From positions 1 to 8,064 of the forward strand of contig CAJWSE010000047.1 of NCBI GenBank assembly GCA_913046275.1: a DNA stretch of 8,064 nt, written 5' to 3'. Below, piece after piece: positions 2,850-7,527 of this stretch. A program made the position numbers and the translations under genes. The number at the start of each line of letters is the position of its first letter. Position 1 is the first letter of the stretch. The DNA comes from an uncultured Phycisphaerae bacterium (GTDB taxonomy: Bacteria; Planctomycetota; Phycisphaerae; Phycisphaerales; SM1A02). The notes beneath the pieces are model-generated. The model was not told the origin of the DNA. It saw only the letters and a program-made list of their open reading frames with translations, and made no database searches.

Positions 2850-3155
2850 ATGTCAATAGATATCACACCTCGGTCGAGTTTACTTTCACTTAATTTGGTA
2901 CTATTAGTAATTCTTGCAGCGGTTTTGTTCATTCCAGAACCAGAAGTTATCGCAGACCCCTACAAGTCGAACAGTTCAAAGTTTATGGCTGTGCCCAGTT
3001 CTGCGAACGGTTTACCTTCAGGAGTGGTGTTCCTTCTTGACACATACCAAGGTGAACTTGTAGCTGTTGCATACAACCATAATCTCGGAAAAATTATGCC
3101 GCTTGGGTATCGCAATACGGTTTTTGATGCAAGTACAATTAAGGGGACTGAATGA
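2850..3155 (+). CDS. Small membrane-anchored protein, function unknown (paralogue of the next gene)
   Basis: The 101-residue protein has one hydrophobic segment at 11-28 (LLSLNLVLLVILAAVLF) that should act as an uncleaved anchor, followed by a small exported domain at about 44-95. That domain contains FMAVPS, then VVFLLDT and ELVAVAYN, which read as paired beta strands, and IMPLGYR. The pattern of 'hydrophobic strand, LLD, hydrophobic strand, PL' recurs in the next gene, so the two look like an ancient tandem duplication. The blades resemble a fragment of a beta-propeller-like repeat, but one copy is too short to form a propeller. The start lies 2 bases after the previous stop and has no clear ribosome site, so it probably depends on coupling. 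The stop overlaps the next start. Confidence 0.75.
   Translation: MSIDITPRSSLLSLNLVLLVILAAVLFIPEPEVIADPYKSNSSKFMAVPSSANGLPSGVVFLLDTYQGELVAVAYNHNLGKIMPLGYRNTVFDASTIKGTE
3141..3146 (+). promoter_or_regulatory. Shine-Dalgarno site of the third small membrane gene
   Basis: AAGGGG lies 5 nt before the ATG at 3152 and 8 nt before the ATG at 3155. The spacing favours 3155, giving a TGATG stop-start overlap like that of the ALDH pair. Confidence 0.5.
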
Positions 3156-3448
3156 TGCATAAAGCTTCACATAATTCATTATTTGCGTCTTCTATTTTAC
3201 TCTTTGCAATGATTCTCTTTGCCGCGAGCCGGCGAAGTCCAGTGGCGTTAGCTGAAGCCTCAAACACATATAGTGGATATACCATGGTGACAACTCCGGG
3301 TGGTCAGGGGACAGACTTGCTCTACCTTATAGATGATCAACACGCAGTTTTAATGGTTTATGACGTACCCAATCCTCAAAGTGAATCGGTTATTCGCCCT
3401 CTCGCATCTTGGTCGTTATCAGAGCTATTTTCTACTGTCAGAAAATAA
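3152..3448 (+). CDS. Small membrane-anchored protein, function unknown (paralogue of the previous gene)
   Basis: The protein has 98 residues from 3152, or 97 from the second ATG at 3155, which has better spacing to AAGGGG. A hydrophobic segment at 9-25 is followed by RRSP, which would tend to hold this side in the cytoplasm, so topology is uncertain; a signal peptide ending near ALAEA (31-36) is the alternative. The domain at 42-94 contains YTMVTTPGG, DLLYLIDD, AVLMVYDV and VIRPLASW. It aligns by eye with residues 45-94 of the preceding protein: Met, the strand pair around LxD, and I-x-P-L match. The start overlaps the previous stop (ATGA), which implies translational coupling and joint dosage. 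deoC follows 24 bases later behind its own promoter-like sequence. Confidence 0.75.
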   Translation: MMHKASHNSLFASSILLFAMILFAASRRSPVALAEASNTYSGYTMVTTPGGQGTDLLYLIDDQHAVLMVYDVPNPQSESVIRPLASWSLSELFSTVRK

Positions 3449-3472: not shown

Positions 3473-4384
3473 ATGCGAAAATCGGTTGATACAGTTATGG
3501 TGAACCAGCGCGCAAGTTCATTTATGCGCCGTTCTATTAAAACAGAATCTAAAAAACAAGGTTTACGGCTTGCTTTGTCAATGATTGATTTGACAACACT
3601 CGAGGGAAAGGATTCGCCGGAAAAAGTACGCTCGCTTTGCTCAAAAGCGATTGTTCCATGGGAAGGCCAAATAGAACCGCCACTGCCTTCGGTTGCAGCG
3701 GTTTGTGTTTATCCGAGCTTGGTAAGGGTCGCAAAAAACGCACTGAAGGGTTCCACGGTGAATATCGCTTCCGTGGCGACGGGCTTTCCATCTGGCCAAT
3801 ATCCACTTGATGTTCGTCTTAATGATGTCACAGAAGCAGTAAGCGCCGGTGCAGATGAAATAGATATGGTAATTAATCGAGGCGCCTTCCTTTCTGGGGA
3901 ATTTGATGAAGTTGCTGATGAGATAACTTGCGTACGTAAAGCGTGTGGCAAGGCGCATTTGAAAATCATCCTGGAAACGGGCGAGCTTGAGACACTTGAA
4001 AATGTACGTCATGCATCTGATTTATCTATTAAAGCGGCGGCATCAGCGGGTCCAATTCAAGATGGCGAAGTGTTTATAAAAACATCAACCGGTAAAGTGT
4101 CACCTGCTGCGACAATGCCGGTTACTCTTGTGATGCTTGAATCTATTCGTGACTACTACGAAGAAACGGGTGTTCGAATTGGGATGAAACCAGCTGGCGG
4201 TATTAAAACAGCAAAACAGTCTCTGCAATATCTTGTTATGGTGAAAGAAACACTTGGAGACGCGTGGCTCTCAAAACATTTGTTTCGGTTTGGTGCATCA
4301 AGCCTAACTAATGACGTTCTCAGGCAACTTATTCGACAAGATACCGGCCGGTACACAGCAAAATATGATTTTAGTGAGGCATAA
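3473..4384 (+). CDS. deoC: Deoxyribose-phosphate aldolase
   Basis: The 303-residue protein is a class I aldolase that cleaves 2-deoxy-D-ribose 5-phosphate to glyceraldehyde 3-phosphate and acetaldehyde. The Schiff-base lysine is K203 in FIKTSTGK (K167 in E. coli). The proton-relay pair is D131 in ADEIDMVIN and K239 in GMKPAGGI (D102 and K201 in E. coli). Other blocks are VCVYPSLV (77-84), ATGFPSG (102-108) and KIILETGEL (164-172). It is longer than the 220-260 residues of the short bacterial form, with an extra N-terminal helix (about 1-33) and an extended C-terminus, closer to the animal DERA type. The first ATG is 9 nt past a -10-like hexamer and seems leaderless; ATGs at 3497 and 3524 are alternatives. 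It is followed after 3 bases by an aldehyde dehydrogenase that can use its acetaldehyde product. Confidence 0.95.
   Translation: MRKSVDTVMVNQRASSFMRRSIKTESKKQGLRLALSMIDLTTLEGKDSPEKVRSLCSKAIVPWEGQIEPPLPSVAAVCVYPSLVRVAKNALKGSTVNIASVATGFPSGQYPLDVRLNDVTEAVSAGADEIDMVINRGAFLSGEFDEVADEITCVRKACGKAHLKIILETGELETLENVRHASDLSIKAAASAGPIQDGEVFIKTSTGKVSPAATMPVTLVMLESIRDYYEETGVRIGMKPAGGIKTAKQSLQYLVMVKETLGDAWLSKHLFRFGASSLTNDVLRQLIRQDTGRYTAKYDFSEA
4374..4379 (+). promoter_or_regulatory. Shine-Dalgarno site of the ALDH gene
   Basis: GTGAGG inside the last deoC codons lies 8 nt before the ATG at 4388. It favours 4388 over the ATG at 4384, whose frame stops after four codons. Confidence 0.5.
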
Positions 4385-4387
4385 TGG

Positions 4388-5866
4388 ATGACTATTAAAA
4401 CGGATCAAATTGGGGGTTGGGAGTATAGTCCAGCGCTTGAGACAACTCAAATAGCCATTGAACCCAAAAACAAGTTATTTATTAATGGTAAGTTTGTTTC
4501 GCCAAAATCTCGTTCTTGGTTTTCAACAACAAACCCATCAACGCAAGAAAAAATCGCAGACATAGCATCAGCGGGCAGAGCAGATATCAATACAGCGGTA
4601 CTGGCTGCTAAAAAAGCACTTCCTAAGTGGTCAAAACTTGCCGGATCTGTACGTGCAAAATACTTATACCGAATCGCACGTAGAATTCAAGAGCGCTCGC
4701 GCGAGCTGGCTATCCTTGAAACGATGGATGGTGGAAAGCCAATTAAAGAATCTCGCGACGTGGATTTGCCCCTTGCTGCGCAACATTTTTTCTATTACGC
4801 CGGTTGGGCGGATAAGCTTGAATATGCATTTCCCGGTGTTGAGGCAAAACCAGTCGGTGTTTGTGCACAGATTATTCCATGGAACTTTCCATTATTAATG
4901 GCAGCATGGAAACTTGCACCAGCTCTTGCTTGTGGAAACACGTGTGTGTTAAAGCCTGCGGAAACAACCTCATTAACAGCGCTTCGTTTAGCAGAGATTC
5001 TTCAAGAGGTTGGCCTTCCACCAGGTGTCGTTAACATTGTGACTGGCGCTGGTGATACAGGGCACCACCTTGTTCAGCATAAGTCAGTTCAAAAAGTTGC
5101 ATTTACAGGTTCAACTGAAGTGGGTAAATTGCTGCTGAGACAGACTGCGGGTTCTGGGAAAAAACTTACGCTTGAGCTGGGTGGTAAAAGTGCAAATATA
5201 ATTTTTGCTGATGCGGCGATCGATCAGGCCGTCGAAGGTATTGTGTCGGGTATTTATTTCAACCAGGGGCACGTTTGTTGTGCGGGTTCAAGGCTTTTCG
5301 TTGAAGAATCTATTCTTGATGAGGTTGTGCAAAAGCTTTCTTACCGCTTAAAATCTCTAAGAGTTGGTGATCCACTCGATAAAAACACCGATCTCGGCGC
5401 AATTAATTCAAAGGCTCAACTTGAAACAATTGAACGATATATTCGTCAAGGCACAAGTGAGGGCGCGCAGCTTCATGAGGTGGACACAAACCCACTTCCA
5501 GCAAACGGCTATTGGTGTAACCCTTGTTTCTTTACGGACGTGCAACCAAGTCATACTATTGCACGTGAGGAAATTTTCGGCCCCGTCCTTTCCGTAATGA
5601 CATTTAGAACGCCTAAAGAAGCAATTGCTCGAGCGAACAATTCTCCGTATGGTTTGGCAGCGGGTATTTGGACTGATAAGGGGTCAAAGATTTTTGAAAT
5701 AGCTAAACAATTAGATGCGGGTGTTATCTGGTGTAACAGTTATAACAAGTTCGACGCGGCGTCTCCATTCGGGGGTTTTAAAGAATCAGGTTTTGGGCGA
5801 GAGGGTGGATTGCAAGGGCTTCGACCATACGTAAACTTCTTTAATAAATCAGGAAGGAAAATGTGA
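4388..5866 (+). CDS. NAD-dependent aldehyde dehydrogenase (ALDH16-type catalytic half)
   Basis: The 492-residue protein is a complete ALDH-superfamily enzyme that oxidises an aldehyde to its carboxylic acid with NAD+. Its key residues are all present: PWNFP (164-168) with oxyanion N166, KPAE (189-192) with the NAD-ribose lysine, FTGSTEVG (239-246), general-base E263 in LELGGK, catalytic C297 in the GHVCCAGSR block (Cys302 of ALDH2), and EEIFGPV (394-400) with E395 contacting NAD. The acetaldehyde made by DeoC is the likely substrate. Spacing to deoC is 3 bases. The next gene encodes a second ALDH-like protein starting inside this stop codon; in ALDH16 proteins such a pair forms one chain. The first 20 or so residues (IGGWEYSPALETT) extend beyond a typical ALDH start. 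A plain ALDH that only happens to neighbour the partner gene is the alternative. Confidence 0.93.
   Translation: MTIKTDQIGGWEYSPALETTQIAIEPKNKLFINGKFVSPKSRSWFSTTNPSTQEKIADIASAGRADINTAVLAAKKALPKWSKLAGSVRAKYLYRIARRIQERSRELAILETMDGGKPIKESRDVDLPLAAQHFFYYAGWADKLEYAFPGVEAKPVGVCAQIIPWNFPLLMAAWKLAPALACGNTCVLKPAETTSLTALRLAEILQEVGLPPGVVNIVTGAGDTGHHLVQHKSVQKVAFTGSTEVGKLLLRQTAGSGKKLTLELGGKSANIIFADAAIDQAVEGIVSGIYFNQGHVCCAGSRLFVEESILDEVVQKLSYRLKSLRVGDPLDKNTDLGAINSKAQLETIERYIRQGTSEGAQLHEVDTNPLPANGYWCNPCFFTDVQPSHTIAREEIFGPVLSVMTFRTPKEAIARANNSPYGLAAGIWTDKGSKIFEIAKQLDAGVIWCNSYNKFDAASPFGGFKESGFGREGGLQGLRPYVNFFNKSGRKM
5851..5858 (+). promoter_or_regulatory. Shine-Dalgarno site of the ALDH-like gene
   Basis: AGGAAGGA lies 7 nt before the ATG at 5866, which itself overlaps the upstream TGA as TGATG. 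It supports that ATG over the GTG at 5863 and shows that the two halves are translated separately but coupled. Confidence 0.65.
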
Positions 5867-6738
5867 TGTCTAGATTGACAGTTTCTAAAACATACAAACT
5901 GTATATTGATGGTCAATTTGCAAGGACGGAATCAGGTCGTTCTTTAGCTATAGAAAATCAGTTTGGCGAAGTAGAGGCACACATTTGTCATGCGTCTCGT
6001 AAGGATTTAAGAGAAGCCGTTGATGCTGCCACTGGGGCTTTTTCTTCTTGGTCTGGTATCACCGGTTACTTGCGAGGGCAAATTTTGTACCGACTAGCAG
6101 AAATGCTTGAAGGCAGAAGAGAAGAATTTGCTGCAGCAATTCAAATAACACAATCAGTCACCATTGCCGTTGCACGTAAAGAGGTTGATGCTGCGGTAGA
6201 TCGACTTGTTTGTTTTGCTGGGTGGACAGATAAACTACAGCAGGTGATTGGTTGTGCGAATCCAGTTGCTGGAAGCTACTACAACTTTACAGTACCTCAA
6301 GCGCAAGGTGTTGTTGTTATCGTTGCACCAAGCAAGCCCTCGCTTCTTGGCCTGGTGTCTCTCATTGGCGCTCCACTTTCGGCAGGAAACACGGTGATTG
6401 CTCTTGGTTCAGATCAACACCCCATGGCAACAGCTATATTTGGTGAGGTTTGTCAAACATCTGATGTGCCCCCCGGTGTTATCAATCTTCTGACCGGTCC
6501 ACATAAAGAGTTGGTTCCTCATGTGGCAACTCACCGCCAAGTTGCAAGTGTTTATTGTGCGAATCCATCTAAAAAAATGCGAGTTATTCTTGAAGAGGGT
6601 GCGTCTGAGAATATGAAGCGTACTCATTGCATTTCTATTGATGACGATACTTGGTACAACAACCATGAGGTTGCCTCTCCATGGCAAATAGAACCATTTG
6701 TAGAGATGAAAACAATATGGCACCCTTCGGCGTGCTAG
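5866..6738 (+). CDS. Non-catalytic ALDH-like protein (ALDH16-type pseudo-domain)
   Basis: The protein has 290 residues from the ATG at 5866, against about 490 for a working ALDH. It aligns with the first half of its neighbour: KLYIDGQFARTESG (11-24) matches KLFINGKFVSPKSR, CFAGWTDKLQ matches YYAGWADKLE, and VPPGVINLLTG (201-211) matches LPPGVVNIVTG. Active-site residues are lost: PWNFP is replaced by APSKP (154-158), the KPAE lysine region by LGSDQ, no LELGGK glutamate is present, and the Cys-containing catalytic domain and EEIFGPV are absent. The chain ends in WHPSAC. The frame is clean, with good ribosome site and TGATG overlap, so it is not a decayed gene. In ALDH16 proteins, a similar truncated pseudo-ALDH domain of about this size is fused to a catalytic ALDH and serves oligomerisation. 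I infer that this is that domain encoded separately. The stop overlaps the convergent lipoprotein stop within CTAG. Confidence 0.85.
   Translation: MSRLTVSKTYKLYIDGQFARTESGRSLAIENQFGEVEAHICHASRKDLREAVDAATGAFSSWSGITGYLRGQILYRLAEMLEGRREEFAAAIQITQSVTIAVARKEVDAAVDRLVCFAGWTDKLQQVIGCANPVAGSYYNFTVPQAQGVVVIVAPSKPSLLGLVSLIGAPLSAGNTVIALGSDQHPMATAIFGEVCQTSDVPPGVINLLTGPHKELVPHVATHRQVASVYCANPSKKMRVILEEGASENMKRTHCISIDDDTWYNNHEVASPWQIEPFVEMKTIWHPSAC
6735..6738. other. CTAG shared by two convergent stop codons
   Basis: The plus-strand ALDH-like gene stops with TAG at 6736-6738 and the minus-strand lipoprotein gene stops with TAG at 6737-6735. The palindrome CTAG serves both, so the two coding regions overlap tail to tail by 4 bases and no terminator can lie between them. 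Confidence 0.85.
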
Positions 6739-7244
6739 CGATAGTTTTGTATTTTATATTTTTTACTACGAATAGTTTTTCCGTCATTTGATATAAACGA
6801 TGCCCTGACAACAACATTTTTCATTGTGTCGGAAACATTGTTAAAATGAACACGATAGGTTCGTGTGACAGGGTCAAAACGCTGTCTATTTATTTCGGGG
6901 TTGTTGAGCGGAACTATTTCCATTGCGCTAGCACCCTCACCGGGCTCATCAATACTAACTTTTAATGAGCCAACCCCCCTGCATGAAAATCCATCGCCAT
7001 CGAGTAATTCAAGGTGAATAACAATCATGGCCTCATCATCACTGTTTTTTGGCAAATCAAACCGACTTAGTGGATGAATATTCATTGTTGCCGGCGCGTA
7101 CGCCCAGCGCCCCAGCTCAATAGTTGGTCCTGTTTGCTTAGATTGAGTTGCGCAGGAATAGCACAATATCACAGTAAGTATTGTTACAGCATGCTTAAGT
7201 ATTTTTTTTTGATTCAAGTAAATGTTAGATTTATACGACGTCAT
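6735..7244 (-). CDS. Probable lipoprotein, function unknown
   Basis: The protein has 169 residues from the ATG at 7244. A hydrophobic segment (15-27, ILKHAVTILTVIL) ends in CYSC, a loose lipobox with the lipidated Cys at 31, so the mature protein is probably anchored in a membrane on the outside of the cytoplasm. The rest has alternating hydrophobic residues and looks all-beta: IHPLSRFDLP, MIVIHLELLDGDG, GSLKVSIDEP, and a conserved-looking FDPVTRTYRVHF near 130-140. It resembles from memory Phycisphaerae lipoproteins with 'hPLTR ... ELLD ... DpvTRTYR' blocks; I know no function. The start overlaps the flgM end by 14 bases with no clear ribosome site, so it is likely translated by coupling. 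A TTG at 7217 would give a shorter, more typical signal peptide but also lacks a ribosome site. The stop is shared with the ALDH-like gene in CTAG. Confidence 0.75.
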   Translation of the reverse strand: MTSYKSNIYLNQKKILKHAVTILTVILCYSCATQSKQTGPTIELGRWAYAPATMNIHPLSRFDLPKNSDDEAMIVIHLELLDGDGFSCRGVGSLKVSIDEPGEGASAMEIVPLNNPEINRQRFDPVTRTYRVHFNNVSDTMKNVVVRASFISNDGKTIRSKKYKIQNYR

Positions 7245-7527
7245 CAATCATGCGCATGATTGCTAAATCTAATTTATCATTGGTTAAATAACTATTTGAT
7301 TCAATGGCTTCTTTTATAGCGTCTACACGCTCTTGGCGAACATCTGGTAATTGGTGAATTTTTTCAAGCATTTGAGCTTGTTCTGAAAATTCGACGCGAT
7401 CTATTGCGACAGCGTCCGAGGTTTCATTTGTTGGAGCCATAACTTCAACAGAGTTCGTTGGAGCTGTAGGCGTAGCCGCTCGTACATTTCCCACCATTGC
7501 ATTTCCGATTACTGATACGTCAGTCAT
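7231..7527 (-). CDS. flgM: FlgM-like anti-sigma-28 factor
   Basis: The 98-residue protein matches FlgM in length and order. FlgM binds the flagellar sigma factor FliA (sigma-28) and holds late flagellar genes off until it is exported through the finished hook-basal body. Residues 1-42 are polar and rich in Ala, Thr and Pro, as in the flexible export part. Residues 43-98 hold the sigma-binding helices: DRVEFSEQAQ (43-52), LPDVRQERVDAIKEAIESNSY (60-80) and LTNDKLDLAIMRMIDDV (81-97), matching the family pattern 'VRxexVxxIKxAIxxGxYxxd.ekla..li'. The RVEFSE block and acidic tail are like planctomycete members from memory. A modest AAAGG site precedes the ATG. No flagellar neighbours are visible; instead the gene overlaps a lipoprotein gene. 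A non-flagellar anti-sigma role is the alternative. Confidence 0.8.
   Translation of the reverse strand: MTDVSVIGNAMVGNVRAATPTAPTNSVEVMAPTNETSDAVAIDRVEFSEQAQMLEKIHQLPDVRQERVDAIKEAIESNSYLTNDKLDLAIMRMIDDVV

Follow-up and report, generated by a model that had tools for sequence, protein, structure and literature searches.

The question raised by this locus is whether ALDH16, an aldehyde dehydrogenase (ALDH) in which a catalytic and a pseudo-ALDH module share one polypeptide, can also be made as two separate proteins. The window, i.e., the whole stretch of 8,064 nucleotides that was analysed, comes from an uncultured Phycisphaerae bacterium (contig CAJWSE010000047.1) and contains two coupled ALDH-like genes behind deoC, the gene for deoxyribose-phosphate aldolase. 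An earlier note on this DNA had read the pair as a split ALDH16. We consider it quite probable that each gene supplies one ALDH16 subunit, the first the catalytic and the second the pseudo-subunit, and that the two chains together, as a heteromer, oxidise the acetaldehyde produced by DeoC. The observations behind this reading are gene order, coupling, per-domain homology, near-complete co-occurrence, complementary strand loss and a conserved deoC; from these we infer that a physical complex of the two chains is likely, together with its stoichiometry and its acetaldehyde substrate. Reviews describe ALDH16 as an outlier family and its human member as a pseudoenzyme that is inactive and has no clear role (PMC8160307, PMC10650815).

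The first gene (4388..5866, forward strand) encodes a complete ALDH of 492 residues, and the second (5866..6738, forward strand) an ALDH-like protein of 290 residues coupled to it through a TGATG stop-start overlap (5864..5868), a description that the open reading frames (ORFs), PF00171 and the motifs bear out. The TGA (5864-5866) and the ATG (5866-5868) overlap by one base, and GTG at 5863 is a possible alternative start. Inside the 3' end of the ALDH gene, 8 nt upstream of the ATG, the sequence reads AGGAAGG (5851..5857, forward strand), which resembles a ribosome-binding site. As the modules lie on two frames and not on the one polypeptide that defines ALDH16, the pair is classed as a split variant and not as standard ALDH16.

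Each chain finds its best match among solved structures in the corresponding domain of LsALDH16, the fused enzyme of Loktanella, and in the trees described below both group with fused ALDH16. The 492-residue chain matches LsALDH16 residues 35-475 with 525 bits (next ALDH 418), while the 290-residue protein matches residues 500-764 with 136.8 bits, compared with 88.6 for the best other ALDH and only 37.6 for the LsALDH16 catalytic domain. The small protein is therefore nearer to the ALDH16 pseudo-domain than to unrelated ALDH families. PF00171 scores 542.2 bits on the large chain and 122.9 bits on the small one (profile positions 15-233 of 461); Pfam and NCBIfam otherwise give generic ALDH matches for both, with equivalog models under their cut-offs. 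PWNFP, KPAE, LELGGK, HVCCAG and EIFGPV are all present in the alignment of the 492-residue chain, which thus has the residues for aldehyde oxidation dependent on nicotinamide adenine dinucleotide (NAD) and is predicted to be active.

The 290-residue protein had been described as a truncated ALDH, and the named motifs and the cysteine domain are indeed missing: PSKPS stands in place of PWNFP and LGSD in place of KPAE, the LELGGK columns show no relation, and the alignment has gaps at the Cys and EIFGPV blocks. However, it is more than a truncation, as it retains, besides an N-terminal and Rossmann-like part, a C-terminal ALDH-like strand, EMKTIW, beyond the deleted catalytic domain. Its structural model (predicted local distance difference test, pLDDT, 89.5) has three oligomerisation-type strands at 139-146, 149-153 and 279-286, and Foldseek places 6mvs/6mvr first. 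The structural alignment spans ordinary ALDHs from start to end, e.g., 5-289 on 13-494 of 4qf6, which fits a deletion of the middle part. The nearest named relatives are from Phycisphaerae/Phycisphaerales (76% identity), and the 120 relatives listed all have 259-308 aa; the search scored 8000 candidates and gave 7866 matches, the bulk of them necessarily ordinary ALDHs. The catalytic chain clusters with Planctomycetota loci in the tree. Judged by its sequence, the 290-residue protein corresponds to the ALDH16 pseudo-domain made as a chain of its own, and the homology and pairing of both halves are close to certain.

The survey of split and fused forms that the earlier note had proposed covered 1039 genomes of five phyla, using a pseudo-domain profile (A3) that gives true pseudo-domains at least 235 bits and ordinary ALDHs at most 178. 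The first 7 to 16 candidates in each genome were scored, and 149 genomes were positive: 20/199 in Planctomycetota (omitting five rows at 167-178 bits, judged ordinary ALDHs), 27/299 in Pseudomonadota, 45/198 in Actinomycetota, 42/198 in Bacteroidota and 15/145 in Verrucomicrobiota. Five survey centres picked for carrying the genes are counted in their phyla, so prevalence is slightly inflated. The form could be classified at 145 of the 149 loci, the other four (G603, G655, G684 and G687, Actinomycetota) lying at or near contig ends; 99 loci are split, 38 fused, and 8 have the pseudo-domain alone. The split form dominates in Actinomycetota (39 split, 2 alone), Bacteroidota (37 split, 2 fused, 3 alone) and Verrucomicrobiota (14 split, 1 alone), and the fused form in Pseudomonadota (26 fused, with the survey centre itself as the one split locus). 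Planctomycetota are mixed, with 8 split, 10 fused and 2 alone. From the catalytic stop to the pseudo-domain start there are at most 60 bases in 73 of the 99 split loci, at most 300 in 89 and more than 1000 in 6. A separate set of 80 loci, biased to the query and kept out of the 145, contains 73 split loci, 7 alone and none fused.

In a tree rooted with 16 near single-domain ALDHs, the ALDH16 catalytic modules form one group (support 99) with a fused clade of 24 rows (support 100) and a split clade of 49 rows (support 99), and the pseudo-domain tree recovers identical sets of 24 and 49 rows. P0163, a fused form from an Elusimicrobiota metagenome-assembled genome, falls outside both main clades with this outgroup. 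A more distant outgroup gives supports of 87, 96 and 99, and P0163 then joins the split clade at 94. Constraining P0163 to the fused clade is not rejected (approximately unbiased test, p-AU 0.733), and a support of only 29 backs its placement in the split clade. Either fusion or fission may thus have occurred at the base, and P0163 is the key to the question. A later fusion within Actinomycetota is supported, as the split clade contains four actinobacterial fusions (P0134/P0138, P0122/P0125). The earlier note had suggested that the split state is ancestral, in which case fused ALDH16 arose by fusion rather than the split form by fission of a fused ancestor. The wider spread of the split form by phylum in this survey agrees with this, and so does the presence within the split clade of one or more later fusions. 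However, at the resolution of these trees the fused and split clades are sisters, P0163 is unplaced and a fused root is equally parsimonious, and a split ancestor has, in our judgement, slightly less than an even chance.

The neighbour most suggestive of function is deoC, which the earlier note had overlooked and which hints at a role for a poorly understood family. In the window it is the first gene of the presumed operon (3473..4384, forward strand, 303 aa), is identified by TIGR00126 (169.5 bits vs. an equivalog cut-off of 117.3) and by PF01791, and ends 3 bases, stop to start, before the catalytic ALDH gene. In the survey, 97/99 split and 34/38 fused loci have deoC upstream in the same orientation, at most 1.5 kb away, and it lies farther upstream in two more split loci and one more fused locus. 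Since the loci were collected by the pseudo-domain alone, deoC played no part in their selection. It is absent from three fused stretches, two of which cover less than 1.8 kb upstream, and the 1.5 kb flanks of the nearest single-domain ALDHs contain no deoC (0/16). A plasmid of Sinorhizobium medicae is an example of the fused arrangement, with a DeoR regulator followed by deoC and a 794-aa ALDH.

A pathway paper describes how DeoC splits deoxyribose 5-phosphate to acetaldehyde and glyceraldehyde 3-phosphate (PMC6365646), which makes acetaldehyde the obvious candidate substrate of ALDH16. In the proposed mechanism, DeoC would release acetaldehyde in this reaction and the ALDH16 pair would oxidise it to acetate with NAD; we regard this acetaldehyde role as a good working hypothesis. 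The sequence reveals no substrate, and no NCBIfam equivalog model reaches its cut-off on the catalytic chain. The two-subunit ALDH16 might thus oxidise another aldehyde, with deoC nearby on other grounds, for example the use of glyceraldehyde 3-phosphate or a side reaction of DeoC. We find this unlikely, as deoC is conserved beside split and fused forms in five phyla and the acetaldehyde of this pathway (PMC6365646) is a simple ALDH substrate.

The two chains also complement each other in the parts needed for oligomerisation. The oligomerisation arm of ALDHs consists of a hairpin before PWNFP and a C-terminal strand. According to a review, ordinary ALDHs carry an arm-like oligomerisation domain (PMC8160307). 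We looked for the C-terminal strand motif in 135 loci (98 split, including the window, and 37 fused; three loci without the tail landmark were omitted). The C-terminal strand motif occurs in none of the 135 catalytic tails, in all 16 of the nearest single-domain ALDHs and in 131 of the 135 pseudo C-termini, the remaining four having KTAW or RTVW. The hairpin region has 14 residues in split and 12 in fused catalytic chains, 22-28 in the 16 single-domain ALDHs, and 25 or 22 in pseudo-chains. A second measure of the hairpin gives 26-27 in the 99 split loci, 24 in the 38 fused loci and 34-46 in single-domain ALDHs, nine of the 16 being measurable. Among distant ALDHs the strand motif was present in 1/9 measured, another 12 being without the landmark, so its rarity there marks it as a feature of this ALDH branch and not of all ALDHs. 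Catalytic ALDH16 chains, split or fused and the window's among them, have therefore lost both pieces of the arm, while the pseudo-chains keep both and have lost the cysteine domain.

The halves also occur together. A search for the catalytic chain in 595 genomes of Actinomycetota, Bacteroidota and Planctomycetota, with the line drawn at 500 bits, found both halves in 106 genomes, the catalytic half alone in one, the pseudo half alone in one and neither in 487. The catalytic-only gene (G641) runs off its contig, and the pseudo-only genome (G799) has a fused frame whose catalytic part is damaged (398 bits). Among ten genomes picked because no partner adjoins the pseudo gene, eight have a split-type catalytic gene at another site (665-729 bits), with no more than 353 bits for their other ALDHs. 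No split-type catalytic partner was found in the other two genomes, G1047 (locus L069) and G1008 (locus L280), whose lone pseudo genes reflect either incomplete assemblies or real orphans.

These patterns bear on whether the pseudo-ALDH, rather than being a structural subunit, acts independently as a regulator or binding protein and has only its operon in common with the enzyme. It is a separate chain without an adjoining partner in 8/145 loci, and human ALDH16A1, a pseudoenzyme, has been proposed to work via protein binding, according to a review (PMC10650815). Such a role is nevertheless improbable, given that in 38/145 loci, and again within Actinomycetota, the pseudo-ALDH and the ALDH16 catalytic module form one chain, that the halves co-occur and that the loss of oligomerisation strands is complementary. 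A natural actinobacterial fusion of the split clade was additionally modelled, and both of its modules match 6mvs (725 residues superposed at 1.7 Å). The suggestion of the earlier note that the pseudo-subunit binds the catalytic one is thus well supported but indirect, resting on co-occurrence, complementary strand loss and the natural fusion modelled in the LsALDH16 arrangement.

The two chains are probably an obligate alpha2beta2 heteromer. Within the shared ALDH fold, the catalytic chain would hold the active site without oligomerisation strands, and the pseudo-chain, lacking the cysteine domain, would lend its three strands to the catalytic partner. Two catalytic and two pseudo-chains may in this way assemble what is normally an ALDH tetramer.

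A fused gene broken by frameshift, fission under decay or assembly error might be suspected from the summed length, which is near that of fused ALDH16, and from database forms that look frameshifted (P0121, P0131), but it is rejected at the level of the lineage and very improbable here, given the length of the listed relatives (259-308 aa), 99 split loci in five phyla, a supported split clade in both trees, and a start and ribosome-binding-site-like motif of the pseudo gene's own.

The gene after the pseudo-ALDH is convergent, which makes the pseudo-ALDH the last gene of the presumed operon. Just 5' of deoC are two small overlapping forward ORFs with hydrophobic starts (2850-3155 and 3152-3448; 101 and 98 aa), for which a search of Pfam and NCBIfam gave no match. 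The redox-sensing repressor Rex is encoded on the reverse strand at 1016-1651 (NF003995, 248 bits vs. 126), near the operon of the NAD-dependent ALDH. Other genes in the window encode a YggS-type pyridoxal phosphate protein (267-1010, forward; TIGR00044), methylenetetrahydrofolate reductase (1727-2617, forward; TIGR00676) and an FlgM-like anti-sigma factor (7231-7527, reverse; PF04316 42.1 bits; TIGR03824 37.1, slightly below its cut-off of 40.75). The window starts with the C-terminal end of an open frame (1-224), which by its motif we would call the succinyl-CoA ligase alpha subunit (sucD).

The closest characterised system is LsALDH16 (PDB 6MVR, 6MVS, 6MVT, 6MVU), whose structures were reportedly determined by Liu and Tanner in 2019. 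The likeness lies in the best alignment of each module and in the same motifs lost from the pseudo-module, and the fused catalytic modules surveyed are also without oligomerisation strands. LsALDH16 differs in being a single chain where the window has two genes, the pseudo-modules are 34-36% identical, and its place in the fused clade is judged from its relatives P0175-P0240. The actinobacterial fusions P0134 and P0138 (815-859 aa) belong to the split clade by both modules but are secondarily fused, the modules being joined by a long linker that is modelled with low confidence (488-526). The nearest single-domain ALDHs (L320-L335) are 45-53% identical to the catalytic chain and share its active-site motifs; they differ in keeping the C-terminal strand (16/16) and in having neither a pseudo gene nor deoC in their 1.5 kb flanks. 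Animal and human ALDH16A1 share the architecture of a catalytic-type and a pseudo-ALDH module, according to the earlier note and the reviews, whereas the human protein is fused and described in the reviews as without catalytic residues; this comparison is by description only. A tie between animal ALDH16A1 and the animal DeoC homologue is speculation.

ALDH16 itself is known. The open-access literature searched held no report of a split ALDH16, its deoC link or reciprocal strand loss, although the primary structure paper may already describe the strand arrangement of the fused form. What appears to be new, within that literature, is that several phyla have ALDH16 mainly as two genes, together with the deoC link and the reciprocal strand loss.

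For the family as a whole, we lean, somewhat beyond an even chance, towards the view that ALDH16 is fundamentally the acetaldehyde dehydrogenase that serves deoxynucleoside breakdown. It would be an obligate two-module machine with catalysis and arm divided. In much of Actinomycetota, Bacteroidota, Verrucomicrobiota and Phycisphaerales this machine would be a heteromer encoded by two genes, and fusion, or splitting, would have taken place at least twice. With two genes, the pseudo-module can be removed, restored or mutated while the enzyme is left untouched, something that the fused form does not permit. The link to deoC gives the ALDH16 family a concrete, testable pathway, and the complementary strand loss is a clear example of a pseudoenzyme becoming indispensable.
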